Source: a virus. From it: DNA of 47,185 nt. Position numbers and translations under genes: made by a program. The DNA is taken from positions 1 through 47,185 of the IMG/VR virus record IMGVR_UViG_3300034631_000063, one strand, 5' to 3'. The notes below the pieces were generated by a model. It worked only from the letters and a program-made list of their open reading frames with translations, searched no databases and had not been told where the DNA came from. The first letter of the stretch is position 1. Each line of letters opens with the position of its first letter. Positions 2,299 to 47,185 of the stretch are shown here, one piece after another.

Positions 2299-2567
2299 CT
2301 CGCTCCCTTTCCGAGCTGGGACCGTCCGGCGCGGGTGATCTTCAGCCGCGGGTGGCGGCCGGAATAGTCGATGCGGGCGAGACCCTTCGCGGCGAGTGCC
2401 AGACCGTCGGCAGCGGAGATTTGGCCGGCGATGCCCCTGAAGCCGCCGGTGATCCGCGCCAGGCCGAGCGGCCGCGCGGCCTCGATCGTCTGCAGCGCCC
2501 GTCGGGTCGCCGGGTCGAGCGGCGCCGGCGCGGCGGGGCCGCTGCCCTGATGGTCGAGCCCGGTCAT
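2295..2567 (-). CDS. Small hypothetical phage protein
   Basis: 90 residues, not recognised. The sequence from about residue 18 on (DPATRRALQTIEAA ... GIAGQISAADGLALAAKGLA ... PRLKITRAGR) reads like a winged helix: two to three helices and a short beta hairpin ending in 'kiT-aGr'. A DNA-binding role is therefore plausible but inferred. It overlaps the stop of the C5 methyltransferase at its start and the next gene at its end, both by 4 bp, as throughout this operon. Confidence 0.55.
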   Translation of the reverse strand: MTGLDHQGSGPAAPAPLDPATRRALQTIEAARPLGLARITGGFRGIAGQISAADGLALAAKGLARIDYSGRHPRLKITRAGRSQLGKGAR

Positions 2568-4846
2568 TCGGCGGCCTCGAGCGCGAAGGCGGGGACGGGC
2601 GCCGCCGTCGCTACCGGCGCACCGGCGGCGAGGTGCGCGCAGTTGGCCGCGACCAGCGCGGCGGCGAGCGGCGGGCAGACCGAGTTGCCGACGCAGGCGA
2701 TCTGGTCGCTCTTGGTCAGGCGGCGGGTCTCGCCGGTCTCCGGGTCCGGATACTCGATCCCGTCGATCCGGTAGTCAGCCGGGAAGCCCTGGGCGAGGAA
2801 CAGCTCGCGCGGGGTCAGCATGCGCAGGCCAATATCGGTGATGACGTACGGCTCGCCGCCGATCTCGACCGTGACCAGGCCGAAGCGGTCGCGGGTGGTG
2901 ACAGTGGCAAACGGATCGTCTGCCGGCTGCCCTATGCCGGCGCCGTAGTATTTCACCATGAATGCCGAGACGAGCGCGGCGTGGTTCCCTCCACGATCGC
3001 CGCCAGTGGTGATCGTGGGCAGCGGCTCGGTGACGTCGCCGCCCGATGCCGTCTTGTTCGACCCGTAAAGGTGAGAGAGGTGCGCCGCGACCACGCCCTG
3101 CTGCGATCCGGTGGCGGTGATGGTGGAGACTGGCCGGTCCGCAGGCTGGCCCGGGTTCACGCCGCCGATGCGCCGGCTGTCGTTGTTGTGCTGCGCGAGG
3201 AAGGCAGCGACCAGCGCCTGCTTCGCCCCGCCGGCGACGACGGTGCCGAGCGGTTTGCCCAGGTCGAGCGCGCGTAGGGCTTGACCTGGGCGTTCGCCAT
3301 AGCCTGTCTGTATCACGCAGGCGGCTGCTCCTCGATGCAGAGGATCTGCTGGCCCGAGTGAATGTAAAAGTCGTGAGTCGTCCTCGGCTCGACGGTTTGC
3401 GTCGTGACCCTCTTCGCCTGGCCCGGTTCGCCGTGCTTGAGCGTCACCAGCACCGGCCAACCGGCGTGCGCATCGACTGTCACCTTGGTCGTCATGGTTT
3501 TCTCCATCAAATGCCGGGAGGCCGCCCGGCGCGGATGAGGATCGCGCCAGAACCGGCGCGATGATGGCGTGCTGATCCTTGTCGGAGGCGGCGATCGTGC
3601 GCATCGGCTCGTCGGCGCCGCGGATCGAGCCGCCGTGTTGCGCAGCGGTGAGGACGGGAGCGATCATCGCCATCTCGCCTCGATGGGCGGTGGTGACGGT
3701 CCGCAGCGGTTCCTCGGTCGAGTTGTTCCGGTCGCCGCCCTGGTGGGTGAGCGGCATCAGCGACGGCGCGACGACGCCATACTTCTGGCCGCCGGCGTGG
3801 ACGGTGCCGATCGGGTCCGTCGCTGGGTATTCGCGGCGCCCGCCGCTGTCGCCGTGCGCCAGCGAGACCACGCTCGGCACCACCAGACCGATCGGGGCGC
3901 CGCCGCCGGGGCGCTTGAGGAAGCTGTTCGCGGTAACGGTCGGAAGCGGCGCGTCGATCGGCGAGCCGGTCGAGCCGGTCTGGAATTTGGCGACCCAAGA
4001 GGCGGGGAGCGCCCCCGGCGCGACAGGGACCACAAAGGGCTCGGCCGCATCCAGCACGTAGCGCTTCGTGCCGCGCGCCACCCGTGCCATCGTCGCCTCG
4101 GCCAGCGGGCGCACCGCGCGGACACCGTGCTTCGCCATGATCTCTTCCGACGTCTCGAAGATCGACGGGCAGGGCAGCGACCAGTCGATGATCTCGGCCG
4201 CCGTGCGCCAGGGCAGCTTGCGCCCGGCGATCACGTCCGGATCGCTCGGCTTGCCGTGCGTCGGCGCCGGCCAGACGATCTTCTGCCCGTCGCGCCGGGC
4301 AATCAGGAAGAACCGTTTGCGCGTCGTCGGCGCGCCATAGTCTGCGGCGACCAGCTCGCGATGGGCTATCCTGTAGCCGAGGCGCTTCAGCTCGCCGATC
4401 CAGCGCTTGAAGGTCTCGCCGCGGCGCGCCGGATCCGGCACGAACTGGCCTTTCTCGTTTTCGAGCAGCGGGCCCCATGTCTGGAATTCCTCGACGTTCT
4501 CGAGGATGATCACCGAGGGTCGCGCGCGCCGCGCCCAGTTGACCACCGTCCAGGCGAGGTCGCGGATGTTGCGCTTGACCGGCTTGCCGCCCTTCGCCTT
4601 GGAGAAGTGCTTGCAGTCCGGCGAGAACCAGGCGAGCCCGACCGGGCGGTTGCCGACGGCCTCGAGCGGGTCGACCTGCCAGATGTTCTTCGACAGGTGC
4701 CTGGCGTCCGGGTGGTTGGCGAGGTGCATCGCCAGCGCCGCGGCGTTGTGGTTGATGGCGATGTCGGGCGAGCGGCCGAGGGCCATCTCGATTCCGGTGC
4801 TGGCGCCGCCGCCGCCGGCGAAGCTGTCGACAATCAGCGGCATCAT
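2564..4846 (-). CDS. Phage C5-cytosine DNA methyltransferase with repeat-rich C-terminal half
   Basis: 760 residues. Motif I is DSFAGGGGAS (7-16), motif IV is SPDCKHFS with the catalytic Cys at 78, motif VI is ENV (116-118), and motif VIII is TTRKRFFLIARR (174-185). A late motif X-like VGNSVCPPLAAALV lies near the C-terminus. Between about residues 240 and 660 the protein has roughly eight imperfect repeats of the form 'PLxTVTaxxxxxlVAPxL', typical of phage members of this family. It should transfer methyl from SAM to cytosine C5, protecting phage DNA from host restriction. About residues 434-511 do not fit the repeat pattern and coincide with a nested small gene in another frame (3313-3495). 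The start overlaps the DUF5131 stop by 4 bp. Confidence 0.85.
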   Translation of the reverse strand: MMPLIVDSFAGGGGASTGIEMALGRSPDIAINHNAAALAMHLANHPDARHLSKNIWQVDPLEAVGNRPVGLAWFSPDCKHFSKAKGGKPVKRNIRDLAWTVVNWARRARPSVIILENVEEFQTWGPLLENEKGQFVPDPARRGETFKRWIGELKRLGYRIAHRELVAADYGAPTTRKRFFLIARRDGQKIVWPAPTHGKPSDPDVIAGRKLPWRTAAEIIDWSLPCPSIFETSEEIMAKHGVRAVRPLAEATMARVARGTKRYVLDAAEPFVVPVAPGALPASWVAKFQTGSTGSPIDAPLPTVTANSFLKRPGGGAPIGLVVPSVVSLAHGDSGGRREYPATDPIGTVHAGGQKYGVVAPSLMPLTHQGGDRNNSTEEPLRTVTTAHRGEMAMIAPVLTAAQHGGSIRGADEPMRTIAASDKDQHAIIAPVLARSSSAPGGLPAFDGENHDDQGDSRCARRLAGAGDAQARRTGPGEEGHDANRRAEDDSRLLHSLGPADPLHRGAAACVIQTGYGERPGQALRALDLGKPLGTVVAGGAKQALVAAFLAQHNNDSRRIGGVNPGQPADRPVSTITATGSQQGVVAAHLSHLYGSNKTASGGDVTEPLPTITTGGDRGGNHAALVSAFMVKYYGAGIGQPADDPFATVTTRDRFGLVTVEIGGEPYVITDIGLRMLTPRELFLAQGFPADYRIDGIEYPDPETGETRRLTKSDQIACVGNSVCPPLAAALVAANCAHLAAGAPVATAAPVPAFALEAAE
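3313..3495 (-). CDS. Small conserved-looking phage protein nested inside the C5 methyltransferase gene
   Basis: 60 residues from the ATG at 3493-3495, preceded by GGAG eight bases upstream. It starts MTTKVTVDAHAGWPVLVTLK and ends YIHSGQQILCIEEQPPA. I recall a family of small rhizobial phage proteins of this type ('VDAHAGWPV...') of unknown role; the predicted fold is an all-beta sandwich. It uses a different frame of the same strand as the methyltransferase. Its stop falls where recognisable methyltransferase sequence (QTGYGERPGQ) resumes. The simplest reading is that this gene was inserted between two repeats of the methyltransferase without closing its frame. Confidence 0.65.
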   Translation of the reverse strand: MTTKVTVDAHAGWPVLVTLKHGEPGQAKRVTTQTVEPRTTHDFYIHSGQQILCIEEQPPA

Positions 4847-39508: not shown

Positions 39509-41488
39509 TTGATTGACGATCGCACGCCCAATCTCGACCTGCCGCTGCCGAACGTGGCGAATAATCCTCGGAACGAGGATGTCGGCCGCCTGCGGGAGGC
39601 GCTCACGACGATCGACGCTGAGGTCTCGGGGCGGCTTGTTCGCGTCGACACGCGAGAAGCACTGGCGGAACTGCACCCCTCCGCCGCATCCGCCTACCTC
39701 AAGGAAAACGGCAGGGCCGGACAGTTCGCCTTCGTCTCCGGCGACCTTTCCGCGCTCGTCACGTCCGATCCGCTGCATGGCATCTATATCGCGCCCGACA
39801 GCGACCCCTCTGGTGCTTCTGGCGCGTGGGTTCGTCAGCGGGACGGCTTGTCCGTCAACCCGATGTGGTTCGGCGCGAACATGGACGACGAGGCTGACGA
39901 TTTCGCGGCAACGCAGGCCGCCATCGACATGATCCCCGACCTCGACGGGTACGGCTTCATAATCCCGAACGGGGTTCTGCGCACGTCGCAGAAGCTCGTG
40001 TGGGACAAGAAGCGCGCGACGTTCAACTGCCTCGGGCGCATCAGCCCGCACGGGGAGCATGATGACTTCCTGATCGAGTTCCGCTTCGACAATGGCCCCG
40101 TCATCAACAACAATGTCGGGTTTCGACCGAACATCGAGCGGCTGGAACTGGACTGCGAGTGGCAGAGCCGGGGCGTGAAAATCTTCAATCCCTACCTCTG
40201 CCTGTTTCCCGAAATCTACGTTGCCCGGTCTTACGGTACGGCGCTGGAGATCGACGGCGGTTTCGAGTGCAGCTTCCTCTCCACCATTCTCACGCTCGGC
40301 CAGAACCGCAACGAGGCGTGGTTTGAGGCCGGCGGATTCGGAAGCTGGACAGCCGGGCAGGCGTATTCTGTCGGCGATCGCGTGCGTGTCGGCTATTCCG
40401 ACTGGAGCGCCGGTACCACGTACGCGTCCGGAGATTGCGTCAGCTACGGGGGTAAGCCCTATCGCTCGATCATCGATGCGAACACGGGGAATGATCCCAC
40501 GGACATGGCCAACGCCGGCAAGTGGGTGCGAGGGAACTACGAGTATTACCAGTGCCTAGTCAACAATACGGACAAGAACCCCCACGCCGGTTTCACGGTC
40601 AATAACGAAACGCCGGGAAACCGTTATTGGCGAATGATCCCGTGGCACGATCCGCTGCTCAAGATCGACAACTCGACGCCGACGACCCTCGTCGACAACA
40701 TGTATTTCTTCGGCCTGATGATCCGCGACAGCGACAACAAGACCTTCATCTGGGCCGACAGCAATGCCAACGAGAAGATCACGATCAATCTGAAGTTCAT
40801 TGGCTGCCAGATCCATGGCATGACGACGGGCATGCAGGCGGAGATCGCGGGGCAGAACGGCGGGACGCCCATCCTGCTCGATGACATGGAAGACAGCACC
40901 GTCTGCTATTTCGGGCGCGTCGCGCGGTCCTACTTCACCGACACGCATCTTCGCGCCGTCATCAATGACAAGGGCACGGTGCTCCAGCTCGGAGCCAAAG
41001 ACCCGAACAAAATCTGCTTCGCCATCGGCGCGAAGGATCTGGAGCTGAGCGGCGAGGGGGCGCGTCAGGTCGGCATCAACGTCATGCCTTCTGTTTTTGC
41101 AGACGAGTTCTATCTCGGGAGCATCATCAACTATATGGCTGGGACCGGCGCCCTCCTCGCAGCCGACCCAGGCCAGCGCCTCAATGGTCGGATGCCGTTT
41201 CGTCAGCGATTTGCAGACGGCTCAAGCGTTCGTCCTGGCCTCGCATTCTCTAGCGATCCGTCGATGGGGTTCACCTACGTCGCCCCCGGTGTCGCGGAGT
41301 TCTACGCGCAAGGTGTGAAGGTCGCGCGGTTCGGCGTTTCGGGTGGCGAAGCGTATGTCGAACTGCCAGCGAAGGTGAAGTTGGGGCCGCTGCCCAGTGC
41401 GGGCAACGATGTTGACGCAGGGTCCGCCGGAGTTGAGGTAGGTTATCTCTACCGGAACTCCTCGGCGCTTCTCCAGCGGCAGACCTAA
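39509..41488 (+). CDS. Tailspike protein with carbohydrate-binding-like modules
   Basis: 659 residues from a TTG start with GGAG eight bases upstream. The N-terminus (MIDDRTPNLDLPLPNVANNP ... REALTTIDAEV) is the virion anchor. A spike-type pectate-lyase-like region follows (WFGANMDDEADDFAATQAAIDMIPD, a common tailspike start). Residues about 280-370 contain SWTAGQAYSVGDRVRVG and TYASGDCVSYGGKPYRSIIDANTG, two CBM5/12-like motifs, then YYQCLVNNTDKNP and GNRYWRMIPWHD. It probably binds or cleaves a host surface glycan. It ends against a convergent glycosyltransferase gene (4 bp overlap), which may alter that receptor. Confidence 0.8.
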   Translation: MIDDRTPNLDLPLPNVANNPRNEDVGRLREALTTIDAEVSGRLVRVDTREALAELHPSAASAYLKENGRAGQFAFVSGDLSALVTSDPLHGIYIAPDSDPSGASGAWVRQRDGLSVNPMWFGANMDDEADDFAATQAAIDMIPDLDGYGFIIPNGVLRTSQKLVWDKKRATFNCLGRISPHGEHDDFLIEFRFDNGPVINNNVGFRPNIERLELDCEWQSRGVKIFNPYLCLFPEIYVARSYGTALEIDGGFECSFLSTILTLGQNRNEAWFEAGGFGSWTAGQAYSVGDRVRVGYSDWSAGTTYASGDCVSYGGKPYRSIIDANTGNDPTDMANAGKWVRGNYEYYQCLVNNTDKNPHAGFTVNNETPGNRYWRMIPWHDPLLKIDNSTPTTLVDNMYFFGLMIRDSDNKTFIWADSNANEKITINLKFIGCQIHGMTTGMQAEIAGQNGGTPILLDDMEDSTVCYFGRVARSYFTDTHLRAVINDKGTVLQLGAKDPNKICFAIGAKDLELSGEGARQVGINVMPSVFADEFYLGSIINYMAGTGALLAADPGQRLNGRMPFRQRFADGSSVRPGLAFSSDPSMGFTYVAPGVAEFYAQGVKVARFGVSGGEAYVELPAKVKLGPLPSAGNDVDAGSAGVEVGYLYRNSSALLQRQT

Positions 41489-43038
41489 CCGTCCACCGGA
41501 TGCTGTAAAAACAGCCTCTGCATGGCGTTCATGCGGGGGACATTCGTCTGTATCTCGTCGATATAGACGTGCGGCGCGGGCGGAGGTGCGGGCGCAGGCG
41601 GGGGCGGAGCGACGGACTCACGGCGCCGCCTGGTATGGTGGGCGGTGAAGGCTCTCGTCGCGACAGCAGAGAACAGCAGGAAGCCCTCAAGATTGAGCGT
41701 CGGTCGCCGCTGGACCAATGACAAGGCCTTCTCGGAGAAGGGAACCCATAGGCTTTCGTTGTAGCGGGCGAACTTCTCCAGAATGCGTTTGCGCTTCGGC
41801 TTCACTCGGTCGCTGCGGAGCAAGGCGACACGGCTGACAAGTGCGGTTCTCACCACGAAGGGGAAGGCGCTCGAACCATTGTTCAGGACAATACGGGTGG
41901 CCTCCAGAAATCTCTGGGGTGAGTGGATGCGGCTGAGCAGGGCAAGCCCGTACCGAGTGAACCCAGGATGCCCTGAGCCGTAGTTGTGGCCGATGACGTT
42001 GGCGCCGTGCTGCACATAGTCGTAGAGCGGCCGGTCGACATAGCCGATGCCGCCTTCGGCCATGGCTATTACCGCCATCCAGTGGTCGTGATAGGCGTCG
42101 CCTATCCTCATCGGGAGCGGCAGGATCTTGTCGAGAAGGGACGTGCGAAAGAGGCTGGCGGCGCCGGTCACGGTGTTCGCAACAAGCAGGGCCTGGAGAT
42201 TGCGGTAGTTGTTCCGGCGGTTGTGCCAAAAGGTGTCCGCGAGGACGGTGCCTTCGCCGTCTGTCAGCCGGCAGTCACTATAGACGAGCTGGGTGCTGTC
42301 ATCGAAGGCCGACAGCAGCGCCTCGATCTTGTCATCATCCCACCGGTCGTCCTGATCGCATAGGGCAACGAAATCAGCGTCCAGCGGCACGAGCGACATG
42401 GCGCGCTCGAAGTTCCGGTAGAAGTTCAAGCGCTGGTCATTAGGCAGGAGGACGAAGCGCGGGTCGTCACCGATCACCTCCTGCATGTCCTGAAAGGCCG
42501 CGGCGGGCGACTGGTCGTCGGTGATGATGCAGAACCAGTTCCTGTGCGTCTGCAAACGCAGGCTTTCGATCTGGCGGCGGAACAGCGCGGCGGGCGGGTT
42601 GTACGTCGCCATGCAGATCGCGACTTTTGGCCCGTCATCCGGCCACTGCACTGTCAGGGGCTCTCTGGCGGAGGGCTCCATCCAGATAGAGCCGAGCGTT
42701 CTTTCCGAACGTCTCCCGTCAACGGAGATGGCCGTGAACGTCACCGTCGCACTGAACGCCTCCTTGATGGACTCCACCGGGACCATCGCGAAGAAGCCGC
42801 TGAGGAGACTGTTTCCCTCGCGGTCTCTCTCGGAGAACTGATCGTGGAAGACGTCGTGACGCACGATCGAGTGGTTCGGGACCGGGTATGTCTTTCCGCC
42901 CACCGTCACCGACAGGGACGCCAGACGGGAGAATGGGCTGTAGGCCCATCCCTTTAGGAGCAAGACGTTTCCGGCGCCGACGACAAAGCGTTCCGGCAAC
43001 GGTTCATCGAGATAGCAGGGCAGCAGAGCGTTGGTCAT
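41485..43038 (-). CDS. Family 2 glycosyltransferase, probable lysogenic-conversion gene
   Basis: 517 residues from ATG at 43036-43038; a TTG at 43068 is an alternative. Residues 1-120 form a beta-sandwich-like region (LLLKGWAYSPFSRLASLSVTVGG). The GT-A domain has VAICMATYNPP, CIITDDQSP, FVALCDQDDRWDDDKIEALL (DxD-type metal site), and VTGAASLFRTSLLDKILP. A Pro-rich linker and short end close it. GT2 enzymes move sugars from nucleotide sugars to surface polysaccharide. Strand opposite to all late genes and position beside the tailspike suggest a moron that changes the receptor after lysogeny. Confidence 0.85.
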   Translation of the reverse strand: MTNALLPCYLDEPLPERFVVGAGNVLLLKGWAYSPFSRLASLSVTVGGKTYPVPNHSIVRHDVFHDQFSERDREGNSLLSGFFAMVPVESIKEAFSATVTFTAISVDGRRSERTLGSIWMEPSAREPLTVQWPDDGPKVAICMATYNPPAALFRRQIESLRLQTHRNWFCIITDDQSPAAAFQDMQEVIGDDPRFVLLPNDQRLNFYRNFERAMSLVPLDADFVALCDQDDRWDDDKIEALLSAFDDSTQLVYSDCRLTDGEGTVLADTFWHNRRNNYRNLQALLVANTVTGAASLFRTSLLDKILPLPMRIGDAYHDHWMAVIAMAEGGIGYVDRPLYDYVQHGANVIGHNYGSGHPGFTRYGLALLSRIHSPQRFLEATRIVLNNGSSAFPFVVRTALVSRVALLRSDRVKPKRKRILEKFARYNESLWVPFSEKALSLVQRRPTLNLEGFLLFSAVATRAFTAHHTRRRRESVAPPPPAPAPPPAPHVYIDEIQTNVPRMNAMQRLFLQHPVDG

Positions 43039-43687: not shown

Positions 43688-44389
43688 ATGTCGACACAGA
43701 TCGTCCAGTCCGTTCAGACCCGCCTCCAGGAGCTCGGGTACTACGCCGGCAAGATCGACGGCGATGCCGGGCCGAACACCGAAGCGGCGCTCGCCGACTT
43801 CAAGGCCGCGCATGGATTCGTCGCCCGGCCGTACCCTGTGATCCAGACCCTGCACATGCTCTTCGACGAAGACGCGAGGGCGAAGGCCAGGCCGATCGTC
43901 AAAGGCGAGCCGGCGTGGATGGTCGAGGCGCGGTCGGTGACGGGGCTGCACGAGGTCAAGGACTATGCCGAGCTCGCCGCCTGGCTGCGCTCCGACGGCC
44001 CGACGCTCGGCGATCCGCGCAAGCTGCCGTGGTGCGGCGACTTCGTGCAGACGGCGATCAAGCTGACGCTGCCGAATGAGGCCATCCCAGAGAACCCGTA
44101 CCTCGCCCGCAACTGGCTCAAGTTCGGTGTCGAGACCAAGCCCCGCCTCGGCGCGGTGATGGTCTTTTGGCGCGGCTCACGGAACGGCATCTCCGGCCAC
44201 GTCGCCTTCTATGTCGGCGAGGACGCGGGCACCTAACACGTCCTCGGCGGCAACCAATCCAACCAGATCAGCGTGACGCGGATGGCGAAGGATCGCTTCC
44301 TCGGCGCCCGCTGGCCGAAGACGGACAGCACCGCCACTGGATCGGTTGCCAAGGCGGCGACCGGCGCCATCAGCCAGAACGAGGCATGA
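43688..44389 (+). pseudogene. Endolysin (TIGR02594-type) interrupted by an in-frame TAA
   Basis: ATG at 43688. Residues 1-60 are a peptidoglycan-binding domain (VQTRLQELGYYAGKIDGDAG, NTEAALADFKAAHGF). Then a NlpC/CHAP-like peptidase: WCGDFVQTAIKLTLP with the likely catalytic Cys and RNGISGHVAFYVGEDA with the catalytic His. Codon 183 is TAA (44234-44236), where homologues read on into HVLGGNQSN. After it the same frame continues HVLGGNQSNQISVTRMAKDR and ARWPKT to TGA at 44387-44389, overlapping the holin ATG. The truncated 182-residue protein lacks the strand with the expected third catalytic residue. It would otherwise degrade the cell wall at lysis. Confidence 0.8.
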
Positions 44390-44751
44390 CCATGGAAAAC
44401 GCTCTCGACATCACGCTCGCCGTCGTCCTGCCGCTGCTGGCGACGGTCCTGACCACGATCGCGATTCCGGCCGCCGTGGCCTGGCTCCAGGCGAACAAGG
44501 TTATCAAGAGCGCAGAGCAGGCGAAGATCCTGCAGTCGGCTCTGGAGAATGCGGCGCTGACCGCGCTTGCGCGTGCCGGCGGGGCGAAAACCGCATTGGG
44601 CGGCGCGAAGACGGTGCCGCTCGATGCGGCCATCGCCTACATGCGCACCTCGGTCCCGGACACGCTCGACAAGCTCCACCTCGACGACGGCACGATCCGC
44701 GACCTGGTTCTCCCGCATGTGCAGAAGCAGATCGAGGCGGTGCGGCGATGA
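44386..44751 (+). CDS. Holin-like protein (LLH superfamily type)
   Basis: 121 residues from ATG at 44386. The N-terminal transmembrane segment is ITLAVVLPLLATVLTTIAIPAAVAWL, followed by a charged helix (KVIKSAEQAKILQSALENAALTALARAGG) and VPDTLDKLHLDDGTIRDLVLPHVQKQIEA. The order of one membrane span and a long cytoplasmic part fits the phi-LLH/6_1 holin type. It times lysis by opening the inner membrane. The start overlaps the endolysin frame's final TGA, so it relied on translational coupling to the now interrupted lysin. Confidence 0.75.
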   Translation: MTMENALDITLAVVLPLLATVLTTIAIPAAVAWLQANKVIKSAEQAKILQSALENAALTALARAGGAKTALGGAKTVPLDAAIAYMRTSVPDTLDKLHLDDGTIRDLVLPHVQKQIEAVRR

Positions 44752-45005
44752 ATCGCCCCTGGCGCCTCGCTGCTCTGGCCGTGGCAGCCTTCCTGGCTGG
44801 GCTGGCCGTCATCTGGCTGTCTTCGGACGCCCGAGCCAGGCAAACGCCTCCTGAGCCTCCCAAGCGGCTATCTGACGCCGTCTGCCCGCCGGCTCCGCGC
44901 CTGGTCCGGGTGGGGCGCGATGGTGGGCTCGAGGTGCAGCTTCTCGGCCGCGACGGCTGCGTCGTCGGATGGGCGCCTTGGCGGCCGATGGTGAGGAGCC
45001 GATAG
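44748..45005 (+). CDS. Small membrane-anchored lysis-region protein
   Basis: 85 residues. The N-terminal hydrophobic segment LAALAVAAFLAGLAVIWL is followed by a periplasmic part with two Cys (Cys46 and Cys70 in VCPPAPRL and GRDGCVVGW). This resembles signal-anchored accessory lysis proteins; an i-spanin-like role is possible but the part is short for that. It overlaps the holin stop by 4 bp. Confidence 0.55.
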   Translation: MNRPWRLAALAVAAFLAGLAVIWLSSDARARQTPPEPPKRLSDAVCPPAPRLVRVGRDGGLEVQLLGRDGCVVGWAPWRPMVRSR

Positions 45006-45009
45006 AGCG

Positions 45010-45462
45010 ATGACGCTACTTCGCATCTATCGCGGCGTCGCCGACCACTTCCCGATCCGGGTCACCGAGTGGATCATGCTCTGGCCGCCGCTCGGCCTTG
45101 CGGCGGTGCTGCAGCTCATGCCGGACATGTTCGAGGTCTCGCCGTCATATGCCTATCTGGCGCGTTGGGCGAGCGAGGCCGGGTGGGCGTGGATATTCAT
45201 CGGCTGCAGCCTGATGCGCCTGGCCGCGCTGGTCATCAACGGCACCTTTGCCGGCTTCGCGTTCTCGCCGCATATTCGCGCCGCGGCCTCAGTGGTCGGG
45301 GTCGGTATCTGGTCGCAGGTCAGCCTCGGCTTCCTGATGGCAGCGCTCTACAGCGGTGGGGCCCTCTCCGGCGTCGTCGGCTGGTCGACGATGGTGCTGC
45401 TCGAAATCGTCAACGTCTACCGCTCCTGGTCGGACGTCGGAAAGAACATGGCGAGGCGGTGA
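45010..45462 (+). CDS. Phage integral membrane protein
   Basis: 150 residues with about four hydrophobic spans (ITEWIMLWPPLGLAAVLQLM-like 20-36, WAWIFIGCSLMRLAALVING, AAASVVGVGIWSQVSLGFLMAAL, GVVGWSTMVLLEIVNVY). Found in lysis regions of rhizobial phages; its function is unknown, and it may assist the holin. Spacing to the previous gene is 4 bp. Confidence 0.65.
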   Translation: MTLLRIYRGVADHFPIRVTEWIMLWPPLGLAAVLQLMPDMFEVSPSYAYLARWASEAGWAWIFIGCSLMRLAALVINGTFAGFAFSPHIRAAASVVGVGIWSQVSLGFLMAALYSGGALSGVVGWSTMVLLEIVNVYRSWSDVGKNMARR

Positions 45463-45464
45463 GA

Positions 45465-45815
45465 ATGTGGGAATGGCTCGCCGGCGTCGACGTCGAGAAG
45501 CTTGCCAACGCCATCGTCATCCTAGTCCTCGGTCTGGCGGCGGGGCTGGGCTTGAAGAAGGGAAAGGGGGAGGCGCCGCATCCGCCGGCTAATGTGGAAG
45601 TGCTGACCGACTTCATCGACGCGCAGGCGATCGGCAATCTGACGAAGGAAGTCACCGGTCAAGCCATCGCAACCACCGAGGCGGCGCAGGCGACGAAGGT
45701 CAACACCGAGGTGGTTCGGATCCTCGCCAAGGCCATCGAGGAGCATGCGCGGGCCGTCATCGACCACAAGGAAGAAGTCCAGGAGTTGCGGCATGAGATG
45801 AGCCGGAGACGGTGA
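45465..45815 (+). CDS. Single-span membrane protein with coiled-coil tail
   Basis: 116 residues from ATG at 45465. One N-terminal span (NAIVILVLGLAAGLGL) and a long helical, charged end with GNLTKEVTGQAIATTEAAQATKVNTEVVRI and IEEHARAVIDHKEEVQELRHEMSRRR. It is the last recognisable prophage gene. A membrane-attached lysis or exclusion accessory is conceivable; no family recognised. Confidence 0.6.
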   Translation: MWEWLAGVDVEKLANAIVILVLGLAAGLGLKKGKGEAPHPPANVEVLTDFIDAQAIGNLTKEVTGQAIATTEAAQATKVNTEVVRILAKAIEEHARAVIDHKEEVQELRHEMSRRR

Positions 45816-46048: not shown

Positions 46049-47185
46049 TCAACGAACGTGCCGGATCATGCTGTGCGCCTTTGACAGGCGTCCCTCGCCG
46101 ATGCCGTACTGGACGTAATGCATCAGCGGGCTGAGGCCGGCCTTCGCGACGTCGGGGTTGCTGGCTAGGTAATGCACCGGGTCGAAGAGCGGCGAGGGCT
46201 GCAGCCCTGCCGCCTCGCCGCGGTTCAGATAGTCGAGCGCGAGCGTTACGCCGCTCTGCGGCGGCAGCTGCGCCTGCGCTTGGTAGAAGGACGGCGAGAA
46301 CAGACCGCTGGCGAGGATGATCCGCGCCTTGTCGAGCTGCTGCAGGGCGATTGCCTCGGCCTGCAGTCGCTCCCAGTCGGCCTGCATCCGGGCTTCCCGG
46401 TCACGCATTTCCCAATAGACGTCGTAGCCTGCCGTCACCAGGAAGGACGGGGACACATCCGGCAGGCAGTCCTCGCGGGCCGCCGCAAGCGCGAGGAGAT
46501 ACATCGTCGAGGGGATTTCCCGGGCGGAGCGCTCCACGGTGCCGTCGTCGCGGTTGACGCTGGCCGTTCCGTCGCCATCGCCGTCGCAGGGAAGGATGGA
46601 CGACGTGACGGAGAGGCGCTGGCCGAACAGGCGCACCGCCGGAAACTCGCGGCGGAGCAGCGCGGCGAACTCCGGCCCCGTCAGCTCCTTCGTGTGAAAC
46701 CGGTTCGCGTGCCCCTGCTTGACGGCGTAGATCTCGGTGTCCGGAGAGGACATGACGAGGAAGCCGCCCGGCCGCAGGATGCGCCGGATCTCGGCCATCG
46801 CCTTGCCCTGGTCCGACAGGTGCTCGATCGTCTCGAACGACACGACGACGTCCGCCGAGGCGTCGGGCACCGGAATCTCGGCCGCGTCGGCGCAGATGAA
46901 GCGAAGGTTGCCGGCCTCATAGCGCGCCGCGGCGTGATCCACCGCGTCCTGCGCGACGTCGACGCCGATCACCGATCGCGCCCGGCTGGCCAGCATGGAG
47001 GAACCGAACCCCTCGCCGCATGCGACATCGATAACGTCGAGGCCCTCGACCGTCGCCAGCGCCCAGGCGTAACGATGCATGTGTTCCTGCCGTATCTCGC
47101 CGACAAGCTCCGGAAGATAGCGTTCCCCGGTGAATGTCAGGGCAGGCACGTCGGCCACTGCCTGATGCGGCCGTGAATTGTTCAT
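46049..47185 (-). CDS. SAM-dependent methyltransferase with C-terminal polysaccharide-gene motif
   Basis: 378 residues, starting with ATG at the last bases of the window. Class I methyltransferase fold: motif I VIDVACGEGFGSSMLA, then SVIGVDVAQDAVDHAAARY, CADAAEIPVPDASADVVVSFETIEHL and EIRRILRPGGFLVMSSP. After about residue 280 comes LFDPVHYLASNPDVAKAG and LSPLMHYVQYGIGEGRLS, a C-terminal motif I know from rhizobial polysaccharide-biosynthesis glycosyltransferases. It likely methylates a surface glycan. Strand opposite to the late genes; it could be host flank or a second conversion gene. The following gene lies outside the window. Confidence 0.85.
   Translation of the reverse strand: MNNSRPHQAVADVPALTFTGERYLPELVGEIRQEHMHRYAWALATVEGLDVIDVACGEGFGSSMLASRARSVIGVDVAQDAVDHAAARYEAGNLRFICADAAEIPVPDASADVVVSFETIEHLSDQGKAMAEIRRILRPGGFLVMSSPDTEIYAVKQGHANRFHTKELTGPEFAALLRREFPAVRLFGQRLSVTSSILPCDGDGDGTASVNRDDGTVERSAREIPSTMYLLALAAAREDCLPDVSPSFLVTAGYDVYWEMRDREARMQADWERLQAEAIALQQLDKARIILASGLFSPSFYQAQAQLPPQSGVTLALDYLNRGEAAGLQPSPLFDPVHYLASNPDVAKAGLSPLMHYVQYGIGEGRLSKAHSMIRHVR

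Follow-up and report, generated by a model that had tools for sequence, protein, structure and literature searches.

The window analysed here is the whole of the IMG/VR record IMGVR_UViG_3300034631_000063, a stand-alone virus record consisting of a single contig of 47,185 nt. Gene calls and family searches recover an integrase, repressor-like and CII-like regulators and a primase, along with terminase, portal, head protease, capsid, sheath, tail tube, tape measure and baseplate genes. The phage is temperate and contractile-tailed, and its host is probably an Aurantimonas/Fulvimarina-type bacterium in which it resides as a prophage. On the plus strand, a frame opening at ATG 43688, with an SD-like GGAG upstream, runs into an in-frame TAA at 44234–44236 (codon 183), leaving a truncated endolysin ORF of 182 aa (43688–44236) with the N-terminal part of a CHAP/TIGR02594 domain. 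Past the TAA, no further stop interrupts the frame between 44237 and a TGA at 44387–44389, and these remaining 50 codons encode HVLGGNQSN...ARWPKT...ISQNEA, thereby carrying the GGNQ motif, R208, P210 and a C-terminal NEA motif. Homology to relatives is continuous across the stop, which bears out the preliminary description in reading the two sides of codon 183 as one endolysin.

When translated with X at the stop, the read-through protein displays a PG_binding_1 domain at residues 4–44 and covers the TIGR02594 model in full (positions 1–132 of 132, 74.3 bits, above the curated NCBIfam cut-off of 70.55), while the Pfam CHAP profile (PF05257) aligns with residues 110–189 at 25.8 bits, the gathering score being 26. 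It also matches endolysin PHROGs, the best-scoring of which bears the name tail lysozyme, and a sequence search of the PDB matched the PG-binding part only. Endolysin is nonetheless the natural reading because the gene is directly followed, here as in related prophages, by one encoding a small holin-like hydrophobic protein.

Lysis region and the start of the holin-like gene

The holin-like gene (44392–44751, plus strand; phrog_17576) encodes 119 aa with a hydrophobic N-terminus. It is followed on the same strand by an 85-aa ORF with an N-terminal hydrophobic segment, a putatively spanin-like position and no family match (44748–45005), by a 150-aa hydrophobic protein (45010–45462) that is a possible second holin or antiholin and has a 26% match in a Fulvimarina prophage, and by a 116-aa protein with an N-terminal hydrophobic segment, which ends the region (45465–45815). 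Flanking the lysis region are family 2 glycosyltransferase and SAM methyltransferase genes (41485–43038 and 46049–47185, both on the minus strand) that run opposite to the late genes; they are likely cargo, possibly acting in surface modification. Elsewhere in the window, a tail-fibre-like protein (39509–41488, plus strand) contains a CBM_5_12 carbohydrate-binding module at residues 299–330, and a 760-aa DNA methyltransferase (2564–4846, minus strand) has a central insert of about 400 residues between its conserved methylase ends, made up of repeated segments with P..TVT-like motifs at their ends. Inteins had been suspected in the DNA methyltransferases, and none was evident on reading the repetitive insert of this one.

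The preliminary description had the natural stop of the endolysin overlapping the ATG of the holin. An ATGA is indeed present at 44386–44389, but it is not conserved, the last endolysin codon in the five closest relatives checked being GCG, GCC, GCT or GTC. In these relatives the ATG of the next gene lies 2–5 bases past the endolysin stop, a position occupied here by ATG 44392, with which the start of one Fulvimarina homologue aligns. An SD-like AACGAGG (44378–44384, plus strand), consisting mostly of the N and E codons of the NEA motif, ends seven bases before this ATG and presumably serves it. The same arrangement recurs in close relatives, where the NEA codons (AAC GAG GCN) double as the SD-like element of the next gene. 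Going by this sequence conservation, ATG 44392, preceded by a Shine-Dalgarno of its own, is probably the true start, rather than the overlapping ATGA. The further claim that the stop breaks translational coupling to the holin survives in a weaker form: termination at 44236 places the holin start 155 bases away, a gap that may weaken coupling, yet the holin has its own Shine-Dalgarno and its translation need not cease. An RNA structure concealing that start was also considered and rejected, as the region has no unusual fold (z 0.10).

Codon 183 in relatives and the truncated enzyme

Relatives covering the part of the gene with the stop codon are encoded at roughly 80 viral and bacterial loci, and codon 183 is a sense codon in every intact homologue retrieved, most often TAT or TAC for tyrosine, the codons that the preliminary description had proposed looking for in other strains. 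The closest relative (L002), with 87.5% identity along the full 233 residues, has TAT, and the next (L003), 86% identical up to the end of its contig, has TAC, such that one third-position transversion is enough to yield TAA; the preliminary description had likewise placed it a single base from a Tyr codon. Stops flagged in six relatives (L032, L034–L037 and L049) proved to lie upstream of their own start codons, outside the gene. In an alignment of 35 sequences the invariant residues include C116, H171, G187, G188, N189, Q190, R208 and P210, the last six of which fall beyond the stop; the 182-aa product thus keeps C116 and H171, while its Cys/His/GGNQ set is left incomplete by the loss of G187–Q190. 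The NEA motif closes 27 of the 35 proteins.

An AlphaFold2 model of the read-through protein (mean pLDDT 85) has five strands (residues 157–161, 170–178, 182–187, 195–200 and 204–209), with residue 183 falling within the third, so that truncation removes the last three. The model of the truncated form has two strands left, and its last block of residues is at pLDDT 43. The best Foldseek matches of the read-through model, modest at E-values of 0.004–0.02, are MepS, a bacterial peptidase and the CHAP domain of LysK. Cys54 and His117 are indispensable in LysK; replacing Glu134 by Ala strongly lowers its activity, and replacing Asn136 by Ala lowers it (PMC4126393). The spacing from His117 to Glu134 and Asn136 is 17 and 19 residues, against 18 from H171 to N189 here, and this spacing together with the conservation points to N189 as the candidate third active-site residue. 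The expectation that the truncated enzyme lacks the strand bearing this residue is accordingly upheld in the predicted structure, with the invariant GGNQ lying beyond the stop.

With six of the invariant residues, the last three strands and the TIGR02594 score all lost (the 182-aa product reaches 49.1 bits over model positions 1–101 of 132, below the 70.55 cut-off), loss of lysin activity is very likely on these models. Re-initiation past the stop was also considered; the in-frame GTG 44273 and ATG 44282 both lie 3' of GGNQ and would give no active piece. Automatic annotation could nevertheless call the 182-aa ORF an intact endolysin, as its PG-binding domain and half of CHAP still match.

Age and origin of the stop

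Several observations bear on how long the stop has been in place. The dN/dS between the window and its closest relative is 0.132 before the stop and 0.145 after it, and the 50 codons past the stop keep a coding pattern of GC content (58/56/88% by codon position). Changes on the window branch in this stretch comprise five synonymous and no clear non-synonymous ones, a further five non-synonymous changes being ambiguous. As about three-quarters of random changes would be non-synonymous, translation of the region past the stop must have ended only very recently or, should the base be an error, is still going on. On these sequence comparisons, the lesion is either very young or a base-call error.

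Between these two, we favor a real mutation, though by no means with certainty. A serious alternative, to which we give roughly one chance in three, is that the contig, metagenomic or draft, was miscalled or misassembled at the TAA and that the real phage has an intact endolysin. This alternative accords with the lack of decay past the stop, the sense codon in all intact relatives, the sufficiency of a single third-position change and the otherwise sound state of the phage: nearly all other genes that have relatives, among them those of the head, packaging and most of the tail, align along most or all of their length, and no further obvious lesions were found among the genes that could be compared. 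Against it, assembled contigs seldom contain substitution errors that produce a stop codon, and among the approximately 60 called genes no second frame-breaking error is evident.

An older origin is raised by a piece of this endolysin gene, some 160 bases long, that survives as a remnant in Aurantimonas manganoxydans (L084:3999–4165) and a second genome of its genus (L147:1474–1819), where it adjoins a gene that reads as MarR-like. The remnant reads ...AGT(stop), with TAG at the codon equivalent to 183, and trees group it with the window, albeit weakly (bootstrap 67–74). A stop shared with this lineage is, however, improbable: the remnant has TAG rather than TAA, along with a TGA at Trp143 and frame shifts, and an old lesion should have left the 50 post-stop codons decayed, which those of the window are not. 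With two one-step routes from Tyr codons to a stop among some 16 such routes in that stretch, we estimate the chance of one of the remnant's two stops falling at codon 183 at about 0.2. The absence of decay in the window makes independent stops the better reading, and the coincidence at codon 183 is probably due to chance.

Equally improbable is programmed read-through, in which an amino acid would be inserted at TAA during late infection to time lysis. The conserved frame past the stop would suit it, and some phages are known to recode late genes, but in the papers cited this concerns TAG and TGA (PMC11210395; PMC9523058). In the window, TAA terminates six other called genes, including those for the head protease, tail sheath, tape measure and the tail-fibre-like protein, with the TAA-ended sheath matching a relative across all 504 residues. 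The search for suppressor tRNAs that had been suggested gave a negative result for the phage itself, a tRNA scan finding no tRNA gene of any kind in the 47,185 nt, and no intact relative has a stop at codon 183. With TAA ending six other genes and the phage lacking tRNAs, reassignment of this stop is not credible. Least probable of all is a maintained switch, wherein the 182-aa product, which retains the wall-binding domain and the Cys/His pair, would act as a binding-only regulator, with rare read-through to the active enzyme and delayed lysis.

A probable recent lesion in an otherwise largely intact phage

Taken as a whole, the best explanation is a recent nonsense change that inactivates the endolysin, to which we assign a probability of about 0.6. 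Under this reading, the gene has just acquired a change from TAY to TAA at codon 183, and its 182-aa product would keep the peptidoglycan-binding domain and the Cys/His pair while being unable to build the CHAP sheet or present GGNQ, as judged from the models. It would therefore be predicted to have little or no peptidoglycan-cutting activity. On induction, lysis triggered by the holin would then fail or be delayed unless the lysin of another prophage in the same cell complemented it. Family searches recognised no second lysin in the phage, some of whose genes are without known function. By analogy, such complementation in a polylysogen is plausible because two prophages of the related host Fulvimarina manganoxydans, at separate sites, each hold an intact lysin of this family; the prophage, which the preliminary description took as possibly locked in, need therefore not be so. 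If the base is real, the record would capture a temperate phage that has only just begun to lose autonomous lysis, with decay yet to set in, and that is in this lineage taking its first step toward a cryptic state. The several lesions or deletions typical of a cryptic prophage are not seen among the genes with relatives, and the lesion itself is an ordinary kind of prophage damage, not a new mechanism.

The closest counterparts are the TIGR02594 endolysins with an N-terminal PG_binding_1 domain from prophages of Fulvimarina manganoxydans and Aurantimonas sp. 22II-16-19i and from Roseobacter phage RDJL6, which share the domain order, the Cys/His motifs and GGNQ; those of the two prophages additionally share the C-terminal NEA/NEV and the next small membrane-protein gene. 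All these are uninterrupted, whereas that of the window stops at codon 183. At a greater distance, the CHAP domain of LysK (PDB 4csh) and the NlpC/P60 peptidase MepS (8xud) have the same predicted fold and Cys-His-polar active-site layout, though sequence identity is low (17–22%) and half of the sheet is missing from the truncated form. The crAss-like phages with late-gene recoding (PMC9523058; PMC11210395) similarly have an in-frame stop inside a late gene. In contrast to their TAG or TGA, however, the window has TAA, identified within a conserved gene in one case only, with no suppressor tRNA in the window and with TAA used as a terminator elsewhere. Finally, the cryptic or ‘grounded’ prophages with disrupted genes (PMC6379469) are likewise temperate phages with a lesion that possibly holds them in the host; their grounding is excision-related, whereas the lesion in the window affects the lysin, with almost everything else apparently intact.
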